Assembly: GCF_000472665.1 (NCBI RefSeq)
Contig: NZ_AXAC01000007.1
Span: 62,001 to 126,000, forward strand
Reading direction: 5' to 3'
DNA length: 64,000 nucleotides
Source: Acetobacterium malicum subsp. dehalogenans DSM 11527
GTDB taxonomy: Bacteria; Bacillota; Clostridia; Eubacteriales; Eubacteriaceae
In this document: piece after piece, positions 2,604-19,850 of the stretch
How the letters are laid out: each line of letters begins with the position of its first letter
Numbering within the stretch: position 1 is the first letter of the stretch
The notes under the pieces: generated by a model
The model's input: the letters and a program-made list of their open reading frames with translations, nothing else
The model's database searches: none
What the model was told of the DNA's origin: nothing
Translations under genes and position numbers: made by a program

Positions 2604-4327
2604 CCGTTACAAGTAATAATCTCAAAGACAATGCCAAGCTTTTCGGCGATATCTTCACTGAAGCCATCAAGCTGGAACTGGCTAACTATGACCATAAAAC
2701 AATTTTAATGGATCTAAAAAAGAAGTTTGAGCCCGGAAAGCTGACACCATTGCTGACGGGTCAAGTTTCAATCAAGGCTGCTGTAAACCAGTATCTGACC
2801 GGGAACGGGTTACAGGACACCATTGAAGATAAAACCGGTATCTATAAGCACCGCGAGTGGCGGGGACCAGTCGATACGCTCTATGATTATGTCAAATGGT
2901 TGGAGCTCTGGGGAATTCTGGGCAAATGGTTGTTAAAACACCCTGTCACCAATGTATCTGCCCTCCTGCGTTATCGTTGGATGGCCGCCTATCTGACGAC
3001 ACCGTCCTTTTTCGATCATAATGTTCCGGGTTTTCGGGGAACGATGCTGCGAGCTGGCCGGATGAATCTGAATACGATTGCCAAACTTTTGACGGCGAAT
3101 ATGGAGGACATTTTTTCCGCTGATCTGAATATTAATCCTGAAAATGAAAATGCGAAAAAATATATCTGCATTGATGCTTACATGCCAAAACTGATTACCG
3201 CCGGTTTTTCTGAACATCAAGGCATATTGGCTCATCTGGTTCCCCATTACCTGCCCTCGATCATTAATCATCATTTGCCCGAGCATTATCTCGATGTAAC
3301 CGAAAGCTACGGGGTTCCGGCAGATGTTTGCGGTCTGCCATCGATGGAATCCGGAGTCGCCATTGAGGATGACTTTCCCAAAATCGGCTGTTGCTATATC
3401 TCGACCAATATGCCTTGTGACGGCAGTATTATGTCAAGCAGTATTTTAGATCGCCGTTTCCAGTTACCAACCTATGTATTAAATACGCCCATGCGTCATA
3501 CCCGTGAAGATACTCAGGAATACGCCATTGAGGAATTAAAAGAATGTATTAAGTTTATGGAAAAACATACTGGTGAAACGTATGATTATAATCTCCTCCG
3601 CGAAGCCTGTGAACGCTGGAACGAACAAAACGCCTTAAGGCTTGAAAAATGGGAAATGAATGCAACTGATACCCCGCCACACTACGGAGCTTCTAATTGG
3701 ATGTATCGGATCTTTACCTACCAGGATGCATGCGGGAGTCAAGTGGCTATCAAAAATGACCGTAAGGTCAATAAAGTCATGCGCAAAAGCTTGGGCAAAT
3801 TGCGAAAATATCCACAACAAACCCGCCATCGCGCCGTTGTTTGGAATACCGTTGCCAATATGTACAGTGCTCTGGACGAATGGCTGCTGAACTGCTGGGG
3901 GATTGAAGCAGTGTTTGAGTTTATTGAGCATCAGGGTCACCGCCCCATTGATACCGCTACCGTGGATTCCATGCTGGCAGGTGTGGCTAAAGTCATTCAG
4001 GAAGCGACCATGCGGGTTCACAGCAAAGGTGGATATAATGCATATACGGATGATCTCTGGCTGCTAGTCGAGCAGTATGACTGTGACATGATTGTCATGT
4101 TTGATCAGATCTCTTGTAAAGGTCCGGCAGCTATCACAGGTTTACTGGAAGAAGAGGCTCGTCGAAGAGGGATAAAAATGGTCTGGTTAAAACAGGATCT
4201 GGTCGATGCCAGAACCATCAGCCGTCGGGATATGCGTGACCAGATCAACAAATACATGGAAGCGGTCATGAATGAAACGCCTCTGGATCCGACGCTGAGA
4301 GATTTCGATGATGGCGAAAGCTGGTAA
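2600..4327 (+). CDS. 2-hydroxyacyl-CoA dehydratase family protein, unusually long component
   Basis: This 575-residue protein is translationally coupled to the previous gene by an ATGA overlap. The C-terminal half has the family features: GCCYISTNMPCDGS, FTYQDACG and a late YDCDMIVMFDQISCKGP that resembles the C-terminal Cys-containing segment of HgdA-like subunits. Usual subunits have about 380-480 residues, so this one is roughly 100-200 longer, mostly in the N-terminal part, which I could not assign. It probably pairs with the 403-residue protein as the catalytic complex and takes electrons from the activase encoded next. Substrate unknown. Confidence 0.75.
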   Translation: MTVTSNNLKDNAKLFGDIFTEAIKLELANYDHKTILMDLKKKFEPGKLTPLLTGQVSIKAAVNQYLTGNGLQDTIEDKTGIYKHREWRGPVDTLYDYVKWLELWGILGKWLLKHPVTNVSALLRYRWMAAYLTTPSFFDHNVPGFRGTMLRAGRMNLNTIAKLLTANMEDIFSADLNINPENENAKKYICIDAYMPKLITAGFSEHQGILAHLVPHYLPSIINHHLPEHYLDVTESYGVPADVCGLPSMESGVAIEDDFPKIGCCYISTNMPCDGSIMSSSILDRRFQLPTYVLNTPMRHTREDTQEYAIEELKECIKFMEKHTGETYDYNLLREACERWNEQNALRLEKWEMNATDTPPHYGASNWMYRIFTYQDACGSQVAIKNDRKVNKVMRKSLGKLRKYPQQTRHRAVVWNTVANMYSALDEWLLNCWGIEAVFEFIEHQGHRPIDTATVDSMLAGVAKVIQEATMRVHSKGGYNAYTDDLWLLVEQYDCDMIVMFDQISCKGPAAITGLLEEEARRRGIKMVWLKQDLVDARTISRRDMRDQINKYMEAVMNETPLDPTLRDFDDGESW

Positions 4328-5342: not shown

Positions 5343-6059
5343 ATGGATATTTTCGATCAATATGCCGAAACGATTGAACAACAGCTAAAATGTGAAACAA
5401 TACAACGTCTATTAAATGAGAAAAGTAGTTGGCCAGTCGCAGAAAAAAACCCTTTCCTCATGGAAAGGGATACCGCATTGGAGCTGGGTGGTTACCCCAA
5501 AGAGAGCCTTAATCTTACATTGAGTTCAACAAACTTTGATTTTGGGAACCAGAGCGGCGTCTATCTGATTGGCGATCCAGAGCTACGGAAGGGTAAGAAT
5601 AACCACCTATCTTTTGGAAAGATCGTCCTAATAAAAAATAAAGACGTTGAAAAAGATGATATCTATAACTATCTGAAGTCTGTGGAATTTGCAGATATCC
5701 GGCAGCACTTTTCTGATATCATGGTCCGGATGTCATCTCAGAAGCTGTTTACCAACCTACGCATCGGAAAAAAAGCCATGAAAAAGGGATTTACGATTGA
5801 AAAGCTTGGATGGGCGATGTATCGTTGTTTTTTGGCGCAACCGCAAATAGAACAGGTAAAGATTATTATGATTGTGGGAGACAGTCCTTTATATAAAAAG
5901 CTGCTCCCCGTTGCCGAAAAAATAAAAGATGCTACATCAGCCCTCAATACAATGTTCGACGGTATGGATCTCGATTGCCAAAGCTGTAAGCTCAGCGAAA
6001 TATGCGATGAGGTCGAGGGCTTAAAAAAAATGCATCAGCAGGCAAGAACAGCGGAATGA
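5343..6059 (+). CDS. Stand-alone protein resembling the middle (A2) domain of acetyl-CoA synthase
   Basis: This 238-residue protein, compared from memory with Moorella AcsB, aligns in order with its central domain. ELGGYPKESLNLTL matches EMGGNRTPAFELV, and GDPELRKGKNNHLSFGKIV matches the IGPDIDQIPEGSKLPLGIL region. RIGKKAMKKGFTIEKLG matches RVSKDAVAKGFRFKNYG, followed by a hydrophobic strand and a CxxC segment (DCQSCKLSEIC) near the place of SCVLCQ. The Ni-Fe-S A-cluster domain is absent. In ACS the A2 domain faces the methyl-donor protein. The function here is unknown; with the CooC-like ATPase it points to a metalloenzyme linked to C1 chemistry (inference). Confidence 0.6.
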   Translation: MDIFDQYAETIEQQLKCETIQRLLNEKSSWPVAEKNPFLMERDTALELGGYPKESLNLTLSSTNFDFGNQSGVYLIGDPELRKGKNNHLSFGKIVLIKNKDVEKDDIYNYLKSVEFADIRQHFSDIMVRMSSQKLFTNLRIGKKAMKKGFTIEKLGWAMYRCFLAQPQIEQVKIIMIVGDSPLYKKLLPVAEKIKDATSALNTMFDGMDLDCQSCKLSEICDEVEGLKKMHQQARTAE

Positions 6060-7200: not shown

Positions 7201-7254
7201 TTGCAATCGCCATCGCATGCTGCTATAATAAAACACGTTAATCATATATTATTA
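7201..7254 (+). promoter_or_regulatory. metQ promoter with AATCATATA operator-like element
   Basis: TTGCAA (7201-7206), 17-bp spacer and a perfect TATAAT (7224-7229). TTAATCATATATTATTAC begins at 7238, just downstream of the -10, in the same place as the shared element at the other sulfur promoters. About 145 nt of leader separate the -10 from metQ. Confidence 0.75.
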
Positions 7255-7279
7255 CTATGTTTTAAAAGGAGGTAGCCCC

Positions 7280-7312
7280 ATGATGAAATCCAGATGTTGT
7301 CTTATTCGCTAA
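7280..7312 (+). CDS. Ten-residue Cys-Cys leader peptide upstream of metQ
   Basis: ATG at 7280, behind a strong AAAGGAGGT ribosome site, encodes MMKSRCCLIR and stops at 7312. It lies between the metQ promoter and the metQ start. Tandem Cys codons near the end of a very short, well-initiated frame are typical of leader peptides that sense cysteine through ribosome stalling. I see no terminator hairpin between 7312 and 7375, so the mechanism may be translational or act through RNA stability. The start could also be the second ATG (7283). Confidence 0.7.
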   Translation: MMKSRCCLIR

Positions 7313-7374
7313 TTTTATGTAGTAGATAAATCAAACGACTGTAAATTTTATGATTAGAAAAGAGAGGATAACAA

Positions 7375-8208
7375 ATGAAATCTAAACGAATTATCGGATT
7401 TATTACAATTATCAGCATTTTGCTTATGGCCCTCACTGGTTGTGCTTCATCAAGTGCTGCCACCACTGAACCAGAAAAGGTCTTGAAAGTGGGCGTGTGT
7501 GCCGGACCATATGGCGATATGTTAGCCGAAGCAATTCAGCCGTCCTTAGAAGAAAAAGGCTACACCGTTGAAATCGTCGAATTCTCGGACTACGTTCAGC
7601 CAAACAAAGCTTTAGCCGCTGGTGAAATTGATCTCAACCTGTTTCAGCATTCTACCTACTTAACCAATTTTGCTAAAGAAAATAGCTTAGACCTAACCTT
7701 TATCAAAGAAGTGCCAACCGCCGCAATGGGAATTTTCTCTGCAAAGTACAAAACCATTAATGATATCGAAAATGGTGCTACCGTTGCGATACCAAATGAT
7801 GCAACTAACTTATCCCGAGCTATTCGAGTCTTGGCGCAAACCAATATTATTACCATCGACCCTGCTGTTGATCCTAAAACAGCCACTCAAAACACCCTTT
7901 CCAGCAATCCTAAAAACCTTCAATTTGTCGAAATCGAAGCGCCCCAATTACCAAGAAGCCTAGACAGTGTCGGCATTGCCGTGATTAACGGTAATTATGC
8001 ACTCAGTTCTGGACTCAACCTTTCTGATGCCCTTTATAATGAAAAACTGTCTGAAGGCTACATTAATGGTGTCGCTGTCCGAACTGAAGATAAAGATTCA
8101 GATTTTGCGAAAGATGTCATTGCTGTGATTGAGTCCGATGCCTTTAAGCAAGTAATTGAAGACCCGAGCAAACAGTATGTTTCTTTCCAAAGACCATCTG
8201 ACTATTAA
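7375..8208 (+). CDS. metQ: MetQ-type substrate-binding lipoprotein (NlpA family)
   Basis: This 277-residue protein has a lipoprotein signal peptide: a basic start, a hydrophobic stretch at 6-20 and the lipobox LTGC, with Cys23 as the lipidated residue. The mature part shows NlpA family features such as LKVGVCAGPYGDML, DLNLFQHSTYL and SVGIAVINGNYAL. It would capture D- or L-methionine or a related amino acid outside the membrane and deliver it to MetNI. The ribosome site is GAGAGG. It is preceded by the sulfur-type promoter and the CC leader peptide, and is separated from metN by a terminator, which would give excess binding protein over the transporter. Confidence 0.92.
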   Translation: MKSKRIIGFITIISILLMALTGCASSSAATTEPEKVLKVGVCAGPYGDMLAEAIQPSLEEKGYTVEIVEFSDYVQPNKALAAGEIDLNLFQHSTYLTNFAKENSLDLTFIKEVPTAAMGIFSAKYKTINDIENGATVAIPNDATNLSRAIRVLAQTNIITIDPAVDPKTATQNTLSSNPKNLQFVEIEAPQLPRSLDSVGIAVINGNYALSSGLNLSDALYNEKLSEGYINGVAVRTEDKDSDFAKDVIAVIESDAFKQVIEDPSKQYVSFQRPSDY

Positions 8209-8281: not shown

Positions 8282-9295
8282 ATGATTGAATTCAAGCATG
8301 TCTCCGTCAACTTTAAACAGCATAAACAGATTTTTGAGGCTGTCAATGATGCACATTTTAAAATTGAAAAGGGTGAGATCTTTGGCATCGCCGGTTCTAG
8401 TGGTGCCGGCAAAAGTACCCTACTCCGTACCATTAATTTATTACAAACTGTTTCATCCGGAGAAATATTGGTGGATGGCGAAAATATCACCAATTATCGG
8501 AGAAACCAGTTGCGAATACTCCGCCGCAATATCGGGATGATTTTTCAGCACTTTAATCTGGCTCGAAATTTAACCGTCTATCAAAATATTGCCTTTGTTT
8601 TAAAGGCTGCAGGAAAATCTAAATCAGAAACTGAAACCCGGGTCAATGAATTACTGAAACTAGTCAATTTATCTGATAAGGCAAATTCCTATCCGGCCAA
8701 CCTTTCGGGCGGTGAAAAACAGCGGGTTGCGATTGCCCGGGCGCTAGCTAATGATGCCAAGATTCTGCTCTGTGATGAGCCGACATCCGCCCTTGATTTG
8801 GAAACAACCTCATCCATATTAAGTTTATTAAAAGACCTGAATAAGAAATTTGGTATTACTATTGTCATCATTACCCACGAACTGGATGTTATTAAAAGTA
8901 TTTGCAACCGATGTGCGGTGATGAATAAGGGATCGGTCATCGAGATTGGCGATGTTTATGATATTTTCACAAAACCCAGAGTAGACTTCACCAGACAGTT
9001 GTTAAGTCATACCAATCATTTCAGTTTGCCCGAGGAAATTATCAGTAAGATGCAAGGTCCAATCATCCGTCTCACTTTTAAGGGTGACAATGCCAACAAC
9101 CCGATTCTCTCTTACGCTGCCAATACGTTTCAAATTGGTTTTAATATTTTATTGGGAAAGATCGAATACATCAACGGTTTACCCCTCGGGATACTCTATG
9201 TTGAGCTAATTGGCGAAGTGGATACCATTAAACTGGCAATTGAATATCTTGCCGCAAATACAGCCGATTTGGAGGTAATTAATCATGGCCTTTGA
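8282..9295 (+). CDS. metN: MetN-type ABC transporter ATPase with C-terminal NIL domain
   Basis: This 337-residue ATPase shows Walker A GSSGAGKST (about 38-46), Q-loop MIFQHFN, signature LSGGEKQR, Walker B ILLCDEPTSALD and the H-loop His in ITHELD. The last 75 or so residues form the NIL regulatory domain of MetN, which binds methionine and inhibits transport when the cell is replete. It energises import through MetI. Its end overlaps metI by 11 bp. Family assignment is strong; methionine specificity is inferred from the NIL domain and the MetQ partner. Confidence 0.92.
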   Translation: MIEFKHVSVNFKQHKQIFEAVNDAHFKIEKGEIFGIAGSSGAGKSTLLRTINLLQTVSSGEILVDGENITNYRRNQLRILRRNIGMIFQHFNLARNLTVYQNIAFVLKAAGKSKSETETRVNELLKLVNLSDKANSYPANLSGGEKQRVAIARALANDAKILLCDEPTSALDLETTSSILSLLKDLNKKFGITIVIITHELDVIKSICNRCAVMNKGSVIEIGDVYDIFTKPRVDFTRQLLSHTNHFSLPEEIISKMQGPIIRLTFKGDNANNPILSYAANTFQIGFNILLGKIEYINGLPLGILYVELIGEVDTIKLAIEYLAANTADLEVINHGL

Positions 9296-9944
9296 TTTAA
9301 AAGCAGCACTGCTTCTGACCTTTGGTCAAACCATGCAGATGGTCATTTCATCCCTTTTGGCCGCAATCATCATCGGTGGCAGTATTGGGCTACTATTGTT
9401 TTTAACATCCAATACTCTTTTTCTCAAAAACCGGGCCATCAATCAAATTGTCGGCGTCATTATTAATATCACCCGTTCAATCCCCTTTCTGATCTTGCTT
9501 GTTTTGATGATTCCCGTTTCAAAGGCGATTGTCCATACGTCCATTGGTCCCAATGCCGTGGTGATTCCCCTGGCAGTAGCGGCCATCGCCTTTTTTGGCC
9601 GACTTTCGGAAGCGTCTTTTTCCGATGTTGACAATGGGGTGCTGGAAGCCGCAATTGCTTCTGGAGCCAGCAAATTGTCAATTGTGCTAAAGATTCTGCT
9701 GCCGGAAGCCTTGCCATCGCTGATTAAGAATATCACCGTGACCGCCGTGTCATTAATCGGGTTTTCGGCCATGGCCGGAACTGTAGGCGGTGGCGGAATT
9801 GGAGATCTGGCCATTCGCTACGGCTATCAGCGCTATGAACCCGAAGTGATGTTCATTTGTGTGATCGTTCTGGTGCTGCTAGTGCAGATCTTCCAGATCA
9901 TTGGCGATTCATCTGCAAAAAAACTGGATAAGACCAGTAAATAA
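9285..9944 (+). CDS. metI: MetI-type ABC transporter permease
   Basis: This 219-residue permease has about five hydrophobic segments and the EAA-type coupling loop (EAAIASGASKLSIVLKILLPEA) that docks on the ATPase. ITRSIPFLILLVLMIP and a glycine-rich AGTVGGGGIGDLAIRYGYQRY are typical of MetI. It overlaps metN, completing a MetQNI importer for methionine or similar amino acids. The next gene, for 2-oxoacid oxidation, starts only 24 bp later, suggesting uptake and catabolism are transcribed together. Confidence 0.92.
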   Translation: MAFDLKAALLLTFGQTMQMVISSLLAAIIIGGSIGLLLFLTSNTLFLKNRAINQIVGVIINITRSIPFLILLVLMIPVSKAIVHTSIGPNAVVIPLAVAAIAFFGRLSEASFSDVDNGVLEAAIASGASKLSIVLKILLPEALPSLIKNITVTAVSLIGFSAMAGTVGGGGIGDLAIRYGYQRYEPEVMFICVIVLVLLVQIFQIIGDSSAKKLDKTSK

Positions 9945-9968: not shown

Positions 9969-10502
9969 ATGATTGAAATACGATGGCACGGACGCGGCGG
10001 ACAGGGGGCCTTCACCGCTGCTAAAATTTTGGGGGCTGCTTCATTAATCGACAATAAATTCTCATTGGCTTTTCCTTCCTTTGGTCCGGAACGCCGCGGC
10101 GCGCCCATTCAGGCCTTTAATAAAATTGATGGTAAAGCGATTATCGATCGAAGTGAAATCAAAAGTTGTGATTATTTGATTTTTCTGGATGATACGTTGT
10201 TCTCTGATGACTATTTAAAGGATCTTAAAGACGATGGCATCGCCCTGATTAATACCGCAACCCCAGATAAATTCAGCAATTTTTCACAGATCCAGACGAT
10301 TGATGCAAATCAGATTGCCCTCAAAATCATCAAAAAGCCCATCAGTAACACGGCAATGCTCGGTGCCCTGGCCTGTATCTCAGACGATATTTCGCTGTCA
10401 TCATTACAGCAAGCCAGCGATTTGTATTTATCAGCTTCCCAAGCAGCCAAAAATAAATTGATACTTAAAGAGTCCTTTGAGCATTTTAAGGAGGTTCACT
10501 GA
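9969..10502 (+). CDS. 2-oxoacid:ferredoxin oxidoreductase gamma subunit
   Basis: This 177-residue protein starts MIEIRWHGRGGQGAFTAAKIL, the signature of the gamma domain of pyruvate/2-ketoisovalerate-type ferredoxin oxidoreductases. FPSFGPERRGAP is also conserved. The four-subunit complex decarboxylates a 2-oxoacid to an acyl-CoA, reducing ferredoxin. The order gamma-delta-alpha-beta in this cluster is that of archaeal and Thermotoga-type enzymes. The substrate cannot be assigned from the gamma subunit. Confidence 0.9.
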   Translation: MIEIRWHGRGGQGAFTAAKILGAASLIDNKFSLAFPSFGPERRGAPIQAFNKIDGKAIIDRSEIKSCDYLIFLDDTLFSDDYLKDLKDDGIALINTATPDKFSNFSQIQTIDANQIALKIIKKPISNTAMLGALACISDDISLSSLQQASDLYLSASQAAKNKLILKESFEHFKEVH

Positions 10503-10503
10503 C

Positions 10504-10794
10504 ATGAGCAAACCCTATTTACGACCCTATCAAAAACCCCAAAAATTGTCGGATTATCCCTTAGGTACCGCCAGTGAAGCCGGATATCTGGTCACCAAAA
10601 ATAGTGGCTGGCGAAACGAACGGCCGATTATAACGGATGAATGTATAAACTGCCTGCAATGTTATCTGTACTGTCCTGATGGCGTTATTTTTAAGACCGA
10701 AGACGGTTTGGACATTGACTATGACTTTTGCAAAGGCTGCGGAATCTGTGAAAAAATCTGCCCTAAACAAGCCATTAAAATGGAGGTGGAATAG
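10504..10794 (+). CDS. 2-oxoacid:ferredoxin oxidoreductase delta subunit (2x[4Fe-4S] ferredoxin)
   Basis: This 96-residue protein contains CINCLQCYLYCP and CKGCGICEKICP, two classical [4Fe-4S] binding motifs that carry electrons from the TPP site to soluble ferredoxin. A longer frame starts at 10477, but the AAGGAGG site at the end of the gamma gene points to ATG 10504 (MSKPYLRPYQKP), 1 bp after the gamma stop. Confidence 0.92.
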   Translation: MSKPYLRPYQKPQKLSDYPLGTASEAGYLVTKNSGWRNERPIITDECINCLQCYLYCPDGVIFKTEDGLDIDYDFCKGCGICEKICPKQAIKMEVE

Positions 10795-10795
10795 C

Positions 10796-11965
10796 ATGGC
10801 TAAAGCATTTTTATCGGGTAATGATGCCTTTGCCGAAGGGGTTAGGCTGGCGCGCCCTCAAGTTATTTCGATTTACCCCATCACCCCCCAGACAACGGTA
10901 GTCGAAAGAATTTCGGAAATGGTCGAAGACAGCAGTCTAAAAAGTGAACTGATCCACGTTGAGTCGGAACACTCGGCTTTGTCCTGTGCCATTGGTGCCA
11001 GTGCCATGGGTGCCCGGACCTTTACGGCCACCTCCTCCCAGGGACTATTATATATGGCAGAATGTCTGCAGTATGCCAGCGGCGGCCGATTTCCGATCGT
11101 GATGATGAATGCCAACCGCTCCACCGCCTTACCCTGGAATATTTATGGTGACCAGCGGGATTCGCTTTCGCAGCTTGACTGTGGCTGGATCCAGGTATAT
11201 GTAGAGGATGCCCAGGAAAGCCTGGACATGGCACTGCAAGGCTACCATATTGCCGAAAACCCGCTGGTTTCAACCCCCGTTATGGTCAATCTGGATGGGT
11301 TTGTCCTTACCCATACCTACGAAACCGTAGAAATTCCAAGTCAGACGGACGCTGACCGCTTTTTGCCACCATTTCAAACCGAAAATAAAATGAGTTTGGA
11401 CAACCCGAAAAACCTGGCATTCAGCGTTGGTCCGGACAATAATATGGAATTTAAATATATCCAACACAAAGCGATGCTGGACAGCAGACGAGTTATCGAA
11501 GAAACCGATGCAAAATTTGCCGAAATTTTTGGCCGCAGTTATGGCGGACTGACCCAGGGTTACCGTATTGACGATGCCGATTATATCCTGATTACCCTGG
11601 GCAGCATCACCGGCCTGTGCCGGGAGGTGGTTGATGAACTGCGAGAACGCGGCGAAAAGGTCGGCCTGCTGAAGCTTCGCTTTATACGGCCCTTTCCCAG
11701 TGATGATCTGGTTGCGGCACTGGAATCAGCCAAAGCCATTGGGGTGTTGGAAAAAGATATTTCCTTTGGTTATGAAGGCACCGTTTATACCAATGTCAAC
11801 TCGGTTATTGCAAAGAATGGCCTCTGTTTGGAAACTTATAATTTCATTGCCGGTCTCGGCGGCCGTGATATCAGCCGGGAAAACATCACAGCAATCTTTC
11901 GCCATCTTCAAACCGGTGGCCAACATGTTAATTTTATCGGACTGGGGGTGACCATCGATGAGTAA
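10796..11965 (+). CDS. 2-oxoacid:ferredoxin oxidoreductase alpha subunit
   Basis: This 389-residue protein starts at ATG 10796, behind a GGAGGTGG site, although the frame is open further upstream. It shows the transketolase pyrimidine-type domain motif YPITPQTTVVERI, ESEHSALSCAIGASAMGARTF and SSQGLLYMAE, all typical of PorA/VorA. A C-terminal transketolase-like domain (LRERGEKVGLLKLRFIRPFP) follows. Together with beta it forms the active site for oxidative decarboxylation to acyl-CoA. It overlaps the beta gene by 8 bp. Confidence 0.92.
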   Translation: MAKAFLSGNDAFAEGVRLARPQVISIYPITPQTTVVERISEMVEDSSLKSELIHVESEHSALSCAIGASAMGARTFTATSSQGLLYMAECLQYASGGRFPIVMMNANRSTALPWNIYGDQRDSLSQLDCGWIQVYVEDAQESLDMALQGYHIAENPLVSTPVMVNLDGFVLTHTYETVEIPSQTDADRFLPPFQTENKMSLDNPKNLAFSVGPDNNMEFKYIQHKAMLDSRRVIEETDAKFAEIFGRSYGGLTQGYRIDDADYILITLGSITGLCREVVDELRERGEKVGLLKLRFIRPFPSDDLVAALESAKAIGVLEKDISFGYEGTVYTNVNSVIAKNGLCLETYNFIAGLGGRDISRENITAIFRHLQTGGQHVNFIGLGVTIDE

Positions 11966-12869
11966 TAAAATAACTGCAAAAACGATCACCGACAGTGAAT
12001 TTTTTTATGGCCATAAGGCCTGCGCCGGTTGCGGCGGCAGTCTAGCCGTGCGAATCGCCCTTAAAGTTCTGGGCGAGGGGGCTATCTCGGTGCTCCCGGC
12101 CGGCTGTATGTCGGCGGTTGGATTTAATTATCCGCATTTGTGTTTTAGCAATAATTCGATCATTTCCACCTTTGCCGGAACCGCTTCGATGCTAACTGGA
12201 GTTGAGGCCGGCGCCCGGGCGGTTGGGATTAAGAATTTCAAAGCTGTTGGGTTGGCCGGGGATGGTGGCACTGCCGATATCGGCATTCAGGCCTTATCCG
12301 GCGCCATTGATCGCAACGATGATATTCTTTATATCTGCTACGATAATGAAGCGTATATGAATACCGGCATCCAAAAGAGCGGTTTAACTCCTTTTGGTGC
12401 CAAGACAACCACGACCCCCAGCGGTGAAAACATTCACGGTAATCTCCGACCCAAGAAAAATCTCTTTGAGATTGTGGCTGCCCATGATATACCCTACGCT
12501 GCCACCGCCAGTATCGGGAATCTTCCCGATTTTATAAATAAGATTGAAAAAGCTTCGAAAATAAAGGGCACAGCCTATATCCATGTTGTCGCCCCCTGCC
12601 CCATTGGTTGGGGCATACCCGTCAATGAAACCATTGAGATCGCCAGAAAAATGATGGATTGCGGTTTGTGGTACCTGGCCGAATATGAAAATGGAAAGTT
12701 TAAATTAAACAAAAATCCCAGCGACTTTTCATCAATTGAAGATTACCTACTTGCTCAGGGACGCTTTAAACATTTAGAAGCTGCAGATATTGAAATACTG
12801 GCCTTACAACGGGATACCAAGTGGGCAACGATCCGAAAAAATTGGAATAACATACAGGAGGAATTATGA
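11958..12869 (+). CDS. 2-oxoacid:ferredoxin oxidoreductase beta subunit (TPP-binding)
   Basis: This 303-residue PorB-type subunit has HKACAGCGGSLAVRIALK with the Cys pair near the N-terminus. It also has the TPP/Mg motif GDGGTADIGIQALSGAIDRNDD and CYDNEAYMNTGIQKSG, the usual beta-subunit sequence. Conserved Cys residues bind the proximal [4Fe-4S] cluster. It ends in an ATGA overlap with the CoA ligase gene, tying oxidation of the 2-oxoacid to downstream acyl-CoA handling. Confidence 0.92.
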   Translation: MSNKITAKTITDSEFFYGHKACAGCGGSLAVRIALKVLGEGAISVLPAGCMSAVGFNYPHLCFSNNSIISTFAGTASMLTGVEAGARAVGIKNFKAVGLAGDGGTADIGIQALSGAIDRNDDILYICYDNEAYMNTGIQKSGLTPFGAKTTTTPSGENIHGNLRPKKNLFEIVAAHDIPYAATASIGNLPDFINKIEKASKIKGTAYIHVVAPCPIGWGIPVNETIEIARKMMDCGLWYLAEYENGKFKLNKNPSDFSSIEDYLLAQGRFKHLEAADIEILALQRDTKWATIRKNWNNIQEEL

Positions 12870-14194
12870 GCGAGAAAAAATATTGGGACGAAAAAATCGA
12901 GACCCTGCCACGAGCAGAACTGGAAGAATTGCAGCGTCGCGAATTAAAGGAAATGCTGGAATTTGCCTACAATAATTCGACTTATTATAAAGAATCCTTT
13001 GACCAGGCCGGACTGACCCCAGCGGATTTTAATCAGCTCGATGATCTTCAGAAATTCCCGTTTACCAATAAGGCCACCCAACGGGAACGGCAGGCCAAGG
13101 GCGGTCTTTTAGGCGATATGATTGCCGTTAGTGAAGATGATGTGGTTTTTGTGTCGGCTTCCAGCGGGTCAACCGGGGTGCCGACCCTCAGCCCCTTTAC
13201 CAAACAAGATTTTGACGAATGGCAGGATGTCGAGAGCCGCCTGTTTTATAGTGCCGGGATGCGCAAACATGATCGTTATGTTCATGCCCTGAACTTTTCA
13301 CTATTTGTCGGCGGACCTGATGTTATTGGGGCCCAAAATTTGGGAGCTCTTTGTATCTGGGCCGGAACTGTACCATCAGAACGGCTGCTTTTTATTTTAA
13401 AAGAATTCCAACCGACGATCATCTGGACAACTCCATCTTATGCTTTGTATCTTGGCGAAACAGCCCTTAAAATGGGCATTGATCCAGCTAAAGATCTGGC
13501 CATTCGCACCATTATCGTAGCTGGCGAACCCGGTGGCTCGATCGGAACCACCCGGGAAACCATTGAAAAAGTCTGGAACGCGGAATTATATGATTTCTTT
13601 GGATTATCAGACATCTTCGGGGCCTGCGCCGGGATGTGCGAAGCCAAAGATGGCCTTCACATCGTCGAAGATCATATCCTGGTTGAAGTTCTTGATGTTG
13701 AAACCGGTAGGCCAGTGGCCGACGGTGAACGGGGAGAACTTGTCTACACTACCCTGCGTAAAAAAGCCCGACCACTAATCCGTTTCAGAACCGGGGATAT
13801 TGGTTCAGTTAATCGCGAACCCTGCAGTTGCGGCCGAACCCACGCCCGGATTAAAATTCATGGCCGGCTGGATGATATGTTTATCATTTCGGGGGTTAAT
13901 GTTTTCCCCAGTGATATTGAGTTTGTCATCCGCGGAACTGAAGGGATTACCGGCGAATACCTGATCCGTTTATACGAGCAGAACCACGCGGTTAAATATC
14001 GGATTGAAATTGAAAAATCGGATGACAGCAATGAACCGGACGAAGTTTTAAGAGAACGGGTTGCTGCTGCTCTTAAAACACGGCTAGGAGTAAAACCCGG
14101 TGACGTCACGATCTTAAAAGATGGTGATTTGGAGCGTGCTACTCATAAAGCCAAACGCTTAATTGATGAGCGAACCTTAATCTATGAAATTTAA
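12866..14194 (+). CDS. Phenylacetate-CoA ligase family (AMP-forming) enzyme
   Basis: This 442-residue adenylate-forming enzyme is of the PaaK type. SASSGSTGVPTLSPFTKQD is the phosphate-binding loop, DFFGLSDIFGACAGMCEAKDG the aromatic/acyl pocket region, and RFRTGDIG the conserved core motif. GRLDDMFIISGVNVFP is the hinge to the C-terminal domain, and THKAKRL lies near the catalytic Lys. In amino-acid-degrading anaerobes such ligases can run backwards, recovering ATP from the acyl-CoA made by the preceding oxidoreductase (inference). It is coupled to the beta subunit by a 4-bp overlap. Confidence 0.88.
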   Translation: MSEKKYWDEKIETLPRAELEELQRRELKEMLEFAYNNSTYYKESFDQAGLTPADFNQLDDLQKFPFTNKATQRERQAKGGLLGDMIAVSEDDVVFVSASSGSTGVPTLSPFTKQDFDEWQDVESRLFYSAGMRKHDRYVHALNFSLFVGGPDVIGAQNLGALCIWAGTVPSERLLFILKEFQPTIIWTTPSYALYLGETALKMGIDPAKDLAIRTIIVAGEPGGSIGTTRETIEKVWNAELYDFFGLSDIFGACAGMCEAKDGLHIVEDHILVEVLDVETGRPVADGERGELVYTTLRKKARPLIRFRTGDIGSVNREPCSCGRTHARIKIHGRLDDMFIISGVNVFPSDIEFVIRGTEGITGEYLIRLYEQNHAVKYRIEIEKSDDSNEPDEVLRERVAAALKTRLGVKPGDVTILKDGDLERATHKAKRLIDERTLIYEI

Positions 14195-14206
14195 AGAAGG
14201 TGCACG

Positions 14207-15379
14207 ATGAAACCACTTAGTAACCGAACTGCTGACTTTACTGATTCGGTGATCCGACGGATGACCCGAATTTCCAATCAATATAATGCGGTCAACCTGT
14301 CCCAGGGATTCCCTGACTTTGATCCACCAAAACCAATTCTTGAAGCCCTGGAAAAAGCTTCCCATCAGGGGCCTCATCAATATTCGATTACCTGCGGAGC
14401 GCAAAATTTCCGGGAGGCCCTGGCGCAAAAACAATCCCGGTTAATGGGCCGATCAATAAATCCGGAAACCGAAATTGTGGTGACCTGTGGAAGCACCGAG
14501 GCGATGATGGCCGCGATGATGACCGTCGCCAATCCCGGTGATAAGGTCATCGTTTTCTCGCCTTTTTATGAGAACTATGGCGCTGATACCATTTTATCCG
14601 GTGCTGTTCCGATCTATGTACCCCTTCATCCGCCGGCGTTTAACTTCAATGCCGATGAATTGGAAGCCGCCTTTAAAAAAGACCCCAAAGCGCTGATTCT
14701 TTGTAACCCGTCTAACCCCACCGGCAAGGTCTTTAACCGGGAAGAACTGACAATCATTGCTGATTTGGCTAAAAAATATGATACCTATGTGATCACCGAT
14801 GAAGTCTATGAACATATTGTTTACCAGCCCCATGAACATATTTATCTGGCCTCTTTGCCTAGTATGTTTGAACGCACCATTTCCTGCAGCTCTTTATCGA
14901 AGACCTATTCCATTACTGGCTGGCGGTTAGGCTATATCATCGCCCCGGAACCAATTATTGATGTGGCTAAAAAGGTTCATGACTTCTTAACCGTCGGTGC
15001 CGCGGCGCCGCTCCAGGAAGCCGCCACCGTTGGACTGCAATTTGGTGATGATTACTACACTGATCTGCAAAAAAAATACACCGAAAAAAGAGCGCTGTTT
15101 TTAGCTGGTCTTGACGACATTGGGCTTACCTACAGTACTCCCCAGGGTGCTTATTATGTGATGATTGATATTTCAAAATACAAATCCGATAACGATCTGG
15201 CCTTTTGTACCTGGCTGGCTGAGCATGTCGGGGTTGGTGCCGTTCCTGGATCAACTTTTTTCAGAGAAAACGTCAACCACTTAATCCGTCTACATTTTGC
15301 TAAAAAAGAAGATACCCTTTATGAAGCATTAAATCGGTTATCTGAAATAGACAAAAAATGGCAAAGTACTTCTTTTTAA
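14207..15379 (+). CDS. Class I/II PLP aminotransferase (amino acid to 2-oxoacid)
   Basis: This 390-residue fold type I aminotransferase shows NLSQGFPDF near the N-terminus, NPSNPTGKVF and SSLSKTYSITGWRLGY with the PLP-binding Lys, and a final RLHFAKKEDTL containing the carboxylate-binding Arg. It belongs to the AspC/YbdL-like group, some members of which prefer methionine or aromatic amino acids. It would feed the 2-oxoacid:ferredoxin oxidoreductase upstream. The gene closes the run metNI-oxidoreductase-ligase-aminotransferase. Exact substrate unresolved. Confidence 0.88.
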   Translation: MKPLSNRTADFTDSVIRRMTRISNQYNAVNLSQGFPDFDPPKPILEALEKASHQGPHQYSITCGAQNFREALAQKQSRLMGRSINPETEIVVTCGSTEAMMAAMMTVANPGDKVIVFSPFYENYGADTILSGAVPIYVPLHPPAFNFNADELEAAFKKDPKALILCNPSNPTGKVFNREELTIIADLAKKYDTYVITDEVYEHIVYQPHEHIYLASLPSMFERTISCSSLSKTYSITGWRLGYIIAPEPIIDVAKKVHDFLTVGAAAPLQEAATVGLQFGDDYYTDLQKKYTEKRALFLAGLDDIGLTYSTPQGAYYVMIDISKYKSDNDLAFCTWLAEHVGVGAVPGSTFFRENVNHLIRLHFAKKEDTLYEALNRLSEIDKKWQSTSF

Positions 15380-17960: not shown

Positions 17961-19850
17961 ATGTACAATGATACAGTACTCGACCATTTTGCCAACCCCC
18001 GAAATGTTGGCAGTATCCCTGATGCTGACGGCCTCGGGATATCCGGGAATCCAGTTGATGGCGATAAAATAACGATTTATATAAAAGTTCAGCAAAATGT
18101 TTTAACCGCTGTTAAATTTAAAACCTTTGGCTGTGGTGCCGCCATCGCAGCCAGCAGTATGCTGACAGTCCTTGCCACTGGCAAAACGTTGAGCGAAGCT
18201 CTAAAAATTACCAATGCTGATGTAGCTGAAGCATTAGGTGGTCTCCCCGAGCAGAAACTGCTTTGTTCAAATATCGCCGCTGATGCCTTGCATGCTGCTA
18301 TTAATGATTATACCAATAAAAATACAAATCTAACTGATTCTAAAGCTACTGCCGCGATTTTATTTGAAACTGAAAATGCTGAGCCTGCTCTTTCAGAAAA
18401 AATTGAAGGTCTAACCGATGCCAATCAAATTAAACGCTATTTGCGTCATATCATCATGCCGGATATTGGCGGCCGGGGACAAAAGAAGCTTCTTGATACC
18501 CGAATGCTTGTCTGTGCCGCCGATGTTGAAAGCTGTGATCTGTTGCTCCGTTATCTTACCGCCATTGGCATTGGTCATATCCACTGCCATTTTGAAAGTA
18601 ATAATGGCTGGGATGAGGCCCTTAAAACGTTGAATGATCTCAATCCTGATGTGACCTTTCAGTTCGCAGATGACTTTGTTACTGATGCAGACTTGACGAT
18701 TATAATCGGGAATTCCGACTATGCGACTCGCACGACAGGGCTGTTTCTTAATTCATCAAGGCCACAAATTTCGCCCACCTTTATTTCAGTAAACGAAGCT
18801 TGGCAGGGTTGTTTCGGCCTGTGTCAGAACCGCAATGAATTAACTGTATTTCTCAATGATATCGAGAAGAAAGGCTTCTCTGCGCAAAACGACTGCAACG
18901 ATAAACATTTTTCTGATCAACTGGGTTTGCTTCTGAGTTCTTGTTTTGTGGGGACATTATTGGCAATTGAAGCCGTCAAATCCCGTATTAATATCGGTGT
19001 TCCACTGACCGATATTTTCTATTTCGATTTAGTAAACCACTCGTTTGACAATCATTTTTCAACAAGTGATCAGGTTTTTGTCGAATTTGACTTATCGTCT
19101 TATGAAAGCGAAATTAATAATAAATTAACGGACGCAAACATCTTAACCATCGGCGCTGGTGGTCTTGGTTGTCCGGCCAATTTAGTATTGGCTAAAGCGG
19201 GTGTCAATAAACTGAGTCTGATCGACTTTGATCATGTCGAAATCAGCAATTTGAACCGTCAGATTCTCCATTCTACCGCTACCATCGGGCTATTGAAAGT
19301 TGAGTCTGCTAAACAGGCTCTGGAAGCCATGAATCCGGATCTTGAGGTAACCACCTACTCCGGCGCTTTTTCAAAAGAAAATGCCCGGGAAATCATCAAA
19401 AAACATGATCTTGTCATTGACGGTCTGGACAATTTACCGACCCGATACCTGTTAAATGACGCCTGCTATTTTGAAAAAAAGCCGCTGGTAGAAGCTGGTG
19501 CTTTAACTTACTATGGGCAAGTGACTACCCTTGTCCCTGATGAAGGACCATGTTTTCGATGCCTGTTTCCTGAAACCAATAATCAGACTGCCGGTAGTTG
19601 TTCTGAAACCGGTGTTTTAGGACCTGTCCCGGGCGTAATGGGCGTGCTGGAAGCCATCGAAGCAATTAAACTGATTATCGGAATCCCGGCAACTTTAAAG
19701 GGTAGTCTCTTGATGATTGATGCCCTGGAGACATCTTTTGACCGCTTCACCTTTAGAAAAGATGAGGACTGCCCGCTTTGCGGCAAACACCCTACCATCC
19801 ATGAACTTGGCGATTTCACTTTTGTATGCGAGACGGCCAAAAATGAATGA
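17961..19850 (+). CDS. IscU-like scaffold fused to tandem E1/ThiF domains (degenerate plus intact)
   Basis: This is a 629-residue three-part protein. Residues 1-120 are an IscU/NifU N-domain with Cys58 (FKTFGCGAAIA) and Cys102 (LLCSN), but the first scaffold Cys is Asp33 (GNPVDGD). Residues 157-370 resemble a MoeB/ThiF domain (RYLRHIIMPDIGGRGQKKLL) whose nucleotide loop has decayed to CAADVESC. Residues 375-629 form an intact domain: GAGGLG (398-403), IDFDHVEISNLNRQ, Zn-type CFRC and CPLC pairs, and GSCSETGVLGPVPGV with the MoeB Cys. It would adenylate a sulfur-carrier protein C-terminus and may receive persulfide sulfur. No carrier gene is visible nearby. Confidence 0.85.
   Translation: MYNDTVLDHFANPRNVGSIPDADGLGISGNPVDGDKITIYIKVQQNVLTAVKFKTFGCGAAIAASSMLTVLATGKTLSEALKITNADVAEALGGLPEQKLLCSNIAADALHAAINDYTNKNTNLTDSKATAAILFETENAEPALSEKIEGLTDANQIKRYLRHIIMPDIGGRGQKKLLDTRMLVCAADVESCDLLLRYLTAIGIGHIHCHFESNNGWDEALKTLNDLNPDVTFQFADDFVTDADLTIIIGNSDYATRTTGLFLNSSRPQISPTFISVNEAWQGCFGLCQNRNELTVFLNDIEKKGFSAQNDCNDKHFSDQLGLLLSSCFVGTLLAIEAVKSRINIGVPLTDIFYFDLVNHSFDNHFSTSDQVFVEFDLSSYESEINNKLTDANILTIGAGGLGCPANLVLAKAGVNKLSLIDFDHVEISNLNRQILHSTATIGLLKVESAKQALEAMNPDLEVTTYSGAFSKENAREIIKKHDLVIDGLDNLPTRYLLNDACYFEKKPLVEAGALTYYGQVTTLVPDEGPCFRCLFPETNNQTAGSCSETGVLGPVPGVMGVLEAIEAIKLIIGIPATLKGSLLMIDALETSFDRFTFRKDEDCPLCGKHPTIHELGDFTFVCETAKNE

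Follow-up and report, generated by a model that had tools for sequence, protein, structure and literature searches.

A short reading frame with tandem cysteine codons, probably translated, upstream of the metQNI operon in Acetobacterium

The analyzed sequence, referred to here as the window, is a 64 kb stretch of a 4.05 Mb Acetobacterium genome whose nearest named orthologs come from A. wieringae. Its plus strand carries an operon that opens with the genes of a MetQNI transporter and continues with a four-subunit oxidoreductase, a ligase-like gene, and an aminotransferase (Table 1). The order of the last two genes is maintained in Acetobacterium orthologs, and a Clostridiales MAG shows the arrangement metB-cysK-metQ-metN-metI-ligase-aminotransferase. 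Behind the operon are genes for a PatB C-S lyase, two cystathionine gamma-lyase-type proteins, and a NifU-ThiF fusion, together with cysK, metA, and an O-acetylhomoserine sulfhydrylase gene. Gene content of this kind fits the import and oxidative degradation of a sulfur amino acid, presumably methionine or a relative of it; our literature search found no paper on the regulation of this metQNI operon. The fusion protein (17961–19850; 629 aa) combines a NifU N-terminal domain with a ThiF/MoeB domain, separated by ∼250 unassigned residues, and adjoins the C-S lyase and cysK genes. At 5343–6059, next to 2-hydroxyacyl-CoA-dehydratase-type genes, the window also encodes a 238-aa protein with only weak similarity (E 2e-4) to CdhC, the beta subunit of CO dehydrogenase/acetyl-CoA synthase.

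Table 1. The metQ leader and operon in window coordinates
Feature	Position	Strand	Basis and remarks
Promoter, sigma-A-type, TTGCAA-17-TATAAT	7201–7229	+	Consensus scan 10/12; TG before the -10 hexamer
uORF Shine-Dalgarno AAAAGGAGGT	7264–7273	+	Near-perfect; ends 6 nt before ATG
uORF MMKSRCCLIR, then stop	7280–7312	+	Sequence; ATG at 7280, stop TAA at 7310–7312; position, start, and 9–10-codon length kept in six genomes
Spacer from uORF stop to metQ, 62 nt	7313–7374	+	Without terminator or conserved hairpin
metQ Shine-Dalgarno GAGAGGAT	7362–7369	+	Inside the 62-nt spacer
metQ, NlpA/MetQ-type substrate-binding lipoprotein, operon gene 1	7375–8208	+	PF03180 3.8e-76; MetQ models
metN, ABC ATPase with NIL domain	8282–9295	+	PF00005, PF09383; MetN model 8.5e-110
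metI, permease	9285–9944	+	PF00528
2-oxoacid:ferredoxin oxidoreductase, four subunits (gamma, ferredoxin-like, alpha, beta)	9969–12869	+	Profile matches
Phenylacetate-CoA-ligase-like gene and aminotransferase	12866–15379	+	Methionine-aminotransferase-like models among the best

A sequence-only reading of this DNA had described a near-perfect ribosome site driving a 10-codon frame with two adjacent cysteine codons, set between a consensus promoter and a sulfur amino acid transporter. Each of these elements was confirmed. The frame (ATGATGAAATCCAGATGTTGTCTTATTCGCTAA), hereafter the uORF, carries its tandem cysteine codons TGT TGT (UGU UGU in the transcript) at 7295–7300. Both promoter hexamers are kept across the six aligned genomes described below, and the promoter position would place the transcription start at ∼7236, with the uORF Shine-Dalgarno then ∼29 nt into the predicted transcript. 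On both strands of the window, the uORF is the sole intergenic AAGGNGG-led frame of 5–20 codons, the other match, at position 4038, lying inside a gene; a Cys-Cys pair arises in 0.9% of draws of nine random sense codons of the same composition. Between promoter and ribosome site, no orthologous leader departs from TTACTATG (7250–7258), a stretch that might form a weak pairing, largely of G-U pairs and with no covariation, with the uORF Shine-Dalgarno.

We aligned the leaders of six genomes, including that of the window, whose metQ genes are 90%–95% identical to the window metQ. All six have a 9–10-codon frame at the same place before metQ, encoding MMKSRCCLIR, MTKFIYSIMP, MRKSLSCLMC, MTRTMCCLMS, and, in two genomes, MTKSMCCLM, the peptide of the A. 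wieringae leader. Both cysteine codons are present in four of the six and a cysteine at codon 7 in five; one ortholog reads Ser-Cys rather than Cys-Cys, and MTKFIYSIMP has no cysteine. The tandem pair is probably ancestral, with full loss in STD2_190 and partial loss in E21. Conservation of the peptide, which the sequence-only reading had made a point of comparison, holds for the start, the frame, the length, and the Shine-Dalgarno, but not for the amino acids: the sequence is not strictly conserved, most changes in the uORF alter an amino acid, and the cysteine pair survives in 4/6. Some positions are conservative (K/R at 3, L/I at 8, and Met at 9 in five of six), as might be expected if the peptide itself were the active element, either in trans or as a nascent chain that arrests in response to another signal. 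At 9–10 residues only and otherwise poorly conserved, it makes a poor candidate for such a role, and this is the explanation to which we give least credence.

Rates of change, counted as parsimony changes per site on the metQ tree for the six leaders, differ sharply along the leader. The uORF Shine-Dalgarno, which is GAAAGGTGGT in the five relatives (GGTGG against the perfect GGAGG of the window), is invariant in 8 of 10 columns and changes at 0.2 per site, compared with 1.07 at four-fold sites (P about 0.001), and the start codon does not change at all (0 per site). Codons 2–5 change at 1.17 per site, the neutral rate. The two cysteine codons, at 0.5 per site, evolve at roughly half the four-fold rate, a slowdown that by itself falls short of significance (P = 0.09 with six leaders), and codons 8–9 also stand at 0.5. 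The spacer averages 0.9, its 3′ half strongly conserved and its 5′ half variable with indels, and the metQ Shine-Dalgarno region 0.15. Several indels fall in the spacer and none in the 33-nt uORF. Judged by the rates for the Shine-Dalgarno and start codon relative to four-fold sites, ribosome loading at the uORF is clearly under selection, and its reading frame is probably kept by selection as well.

This pattern is also what a close rival to cysteine sensing would predict, namely that the leader is a constitutive 5′ stabilizer or ribosome-loading site, in which a strong Shine-Dalgarno with any short frame protects the mRNA from RNase J/Y and the cysteine codons are irrelevant. Strong Shine-Dalgarno sequences in leaders do stabilize mRNAs in Bacilli (STAB-SD, PMC3997798), the clear conservation here is that of the ribosome site and start, with codons 2–5 evolving neutrally, and one ortholog lacks cysteine. 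However, STAB-SD needs no reading frame, although an open frame with its stop at codon 10–11 is kept free of indels in six genomes; the five relatives have GGTGG rather than the perfect GGAGG; and the tandem cysteines before a sulfur operon would be a coincidence. We regard a constitutive stabilizer as a real possibility, short of even odds.

Chance offers another account, in which the frame is unselected and happens to lie behind a purine-rich stretch that is conserved, like the leader around it. Divergence in the uORF body (0.275) is on a par with that of the spacer (0.269), and the carriers are only six closely related genomes. Against this stand the constraint on the Shine-Dalgarno (P about 0.001) and the outcome of a neutral simulation, a post hoc test that starts from a cysteine-bearing ancestor and includes no indels: the start was kept in 2%–9% of runs, the frame in 4%–15%, and start, frame, and the observed cysteine retention jointly in 0%–0.25%. 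We therefore consider chance retention distinctly unlikely. A seventh genome (G001, contig C35) has metQ nearly deleted, and its printed sequence shows the uORF frameshifted with one TGT changed to TAT. Loss of the frame alongside metQ deletion would be in the expected direction, as a single event. This locus appears to be a decayed copy, with the operon end rearranged and the promoter and Shine-Dalgarno still recognizable.

Beyond these ∼seven Acetobacterium genomes, comparison of metQ leaders across relatives, as the sequence-only reading had proposed, gave no further instance: no comparable CC frame precedes other metQ genes of the order or the metQ homologs fetched from other Firmicutes. 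Enterococcus metQ homologs have a T-box in its place. Across 67 genomes of the order, frames outside genes with AAGGAGG, an in-frame TGYTGY, and an early stop comprised only the metQ uORF, a frame before a permease gene in G013, and one Eubacterium frame. The permease frame occurs in two other Acetobacterium genomes, as MKRCCSII (G013, C22:84173 onward; L161 nt 574–620) and MKRCCISV (G004, L184 nt 1540–1570), each followed by a stop. An APC-type amino acid permease gene lies ∼55 nt downstream, and a glutamine-synthetase-like gene, as read from its translation, comes after it. The two frames share 16 identical nucleotides spanning the start and cysteine codons, while their flanks diverge; no terminator was noticed in either permease leader. 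They have a common layout with the metQ uORF: a ribosome site, 8–10 codons including UGU UGU, and a stop ∼55–60 nt before a transporter. When 391 genomes of the class were scanned for MKRCC/MKSCC leaders, matches fell only inside genes or at gene starts; the further CC candidates in the genus, among the matches listed, lay inside genes, at gene starts, or upstream of no convincing gene, and were set aside. Overall, the metQ uORF is real, probably translated, and restricted to this lineage.

Four genomes of genus g5, probably Eubacterium, share a highly conserved, transcript-like unit of ∼240 nt (L189 1480–1790, L190 on the minus strand, L191, and L192). The unit has a TATAAT promoter, a strong Shine-Dalgarno, and a Cys-rich peptide, (V/M)(TA)RHCC(K/E)PTFLHLSCC followed by a stop; a conserved stretch containing GCACTCCCCAAA comes next, along with a strong terminator that faces a convergent gene. 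The unit has no Rfam match at threshold, and its make-up suggests a small RNA containing a cysteine-codon frame, not a leader.

The sequence-only reading had found no terminator/anti-terminator pair and had doubted classic attenuation, and both points are borne out. No terminator-like site lies on the plus strand between promoter and metQ, and the terminator/antiterminator pair of a classical attenuator is absent after the uORF. The single-sequence fold of the leader has a z-score of +0.9, with no supported structure. In classical attenuation, stalling at the cysteine codons would switch either a terminator/antiterminator pair or a hairpin covering the metQ Shine-Dalgarno, and RNAalifold does suggest weak pairing between the codon 6–8 region and that site. 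However, the consensus reaches -4.4 kcal/mol without a compensatory pair, and the cost of opening the metQ Shine-Dalgarno is within the shuffle range in all six leaders. A modeled footprint of a stalled ribosome shifts this cost by at most about 0.4 kcal/mol. Since there is no terminator, Rfam match, or consensus fold, and the modeled stalling effect is so small, attenuation by terminator or hairpin is disfavored, and we consider it highly improbable. The leaders of erm genes also carry sequestering hairpins; an erm-type hairpin hiding the metQ ribosome site is absent from the folds. Rho-dependent termination was rejected by inspection of the spacer, which is short and C-poor. Reinitiation or translational coupling is unlikely, given a uORF-metQ gap of 62 nt compared with a leader-gene peak of 10–16 bp (PMC4833913).

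Known riboswitch classes were likewise not detected: an Rfam search of window and leader found no riboswitch or T-box, the leader has no match to the T-box RF00230 at gathering or at E up to 10, and the SAM riboswitch RF00162 has no match in it. The motif AAAGGTGGTGACC, considered as a T-box core, was rejected because there is no T-box match and only ∼30 nt of predicted transcript upstream of it. The host genome has two SAM riboswitches, before metK and a methionine synthase gene, and 13 T-boxes. None of the 12 T-boxes inspected precedes a cysteine gene (genes named from translations), although clostridia often use cysteine-specific T-boxes (PMC2940859), which makes another kind of cysteine sensor plausible. 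Such T-boxes, placed before sulfur uptake or conversion genes, would also read Cys-tRNA charging, but as an RNA structure without a frame. In the same genome, T-boxes precede two PaaK/coenzyme-A-ligase-type genes (L254 and L256), unlike the ligase-containing operon of the window.

Several known leaders share parts of this arrangement. A 2005 analysis of actinobacteria (PMC1262725) predicted leaders with Cys codons and, as here, found no terminator. Mycobacterial polycysteine leader ORFs of cys operons respond to cysteine (Canestrari et al., 2020, as described in PMC9094748 and PMC13236596) and, like the Acetobacterium uORF, are short frames with consecutive cysteine codons and sulfur genes downstream. 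As those accounts describe them, they are leaderless, have cysteine runs near the stop, and were shown by experiment to be cysteine responsive, whereas the predicted uORF of this Firmicute is Shine-Dalgarno-led and has two mid-frame cysteines. In Rhodobacterales, the uORFC-8-2 motif upstream of cysS (PMC8632094) also has tandem cysteine codons in a leader frame, but with an intrinsic terminator and conserved stems, both missing from the Acetobacterium leader. The S. aureus rbfL, an 8-codon Shine-Dalgarno-led uORF, senses arginine shortage and acts on translation rather than termination (PMC13009471). It is likewise a short frame in a Firmicute but overlaps the rbf ribosome site, whereas 62 nt separate the uORF stop from the metQ start, so direct occlusion as in rbfL is unlikely. 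In Bacilli, mRNA is stabilized by a ribosome stalled near the 5′ end (ermC/ermA leaders) or by a strong Shine-Dalgarno there (PMC3997798); these leaders share the strong 5′-proximal Shine-Dalgarno and short frame and need no terminator, although ermC/ermA respond to macrolides, unlike the cysteine signal proposed here. The resemblance of the uORF to a cysteine leader is one of layout only.

With attenuation, direct occlusion, and reinitiation disfavored, an effect at the 5′ end remains. The explanation we favor, at a probability of roughly 0.4, is a translated uORF on the metQNI-oxidoreductase-ligase-aminotransferase mRNA that responds to a shortage of cysteine-tRNA without a terminator. Loading would take place close to where the transcript begins, and ribosomes short of Cys-tRNA would halt at UGU UGU; a ribosome held there would raise expression of the sulfur amino acid uptake and catabolism operon with no terminator needed. 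By the simplest route, it would shield the AU-rich 5′ end from 5′-to-3′ decay, much like the ribosomes stalled on ermC/ermA leaders, such that the transcript lives longer under Cys-tRNA scarcity; alternatively, it could expose the mRNA locally. Most orthologs hold both cysteine and internal methionine codons, so the response might extend to sulfur amino acids generally.

The sequence-only reading had called this arrangement the signature of a cysteine-sensing frame. Conservation of the translated frame agrees with that description, but the absence of cysteine in one of six orthologs, the Ser-Cys of another, and the P = 0.09 of the cysteine slowdown weaken it. In favor of cysteine sensing we counted frame conservation, the neutral simulation, the G001 frameshift, rarity, the sulfur context, and the independent permease CC frames; against it, the Cys-less and Ser-Cys orthologs, the P value, the amino-acid-altering changes, the lack of a structure linking stalling to metQ, and the MKRCC permease, which has no evident sulfur link. 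Considered together, these data make cysteine sensing by the uORF plausible rather than established, by a mechanism that is apparently not classical attenuation. A more speculative, and on balance unlikely, extension is that terminator-less cysteine-codon leaders before transporters (metQNI and the MKRCC permease) form a class peculiar to Acetobacterium, acting through 5′-end ribosome stalling and replacing the cysteine T-boxes of other clostridia.

Leader frames that sense cysteine are known in actinobacteria and have been proposed in alphaproteobacteria, whereas Firmicutes usually use T-boxes or repressors. If the proposal is correct, a Shine-Dalgarno-led, terminator-less cysteine uORF in an acetogen would add a simple, stalling-based form of control, one that would be easily tested and is easily missed in annotation.
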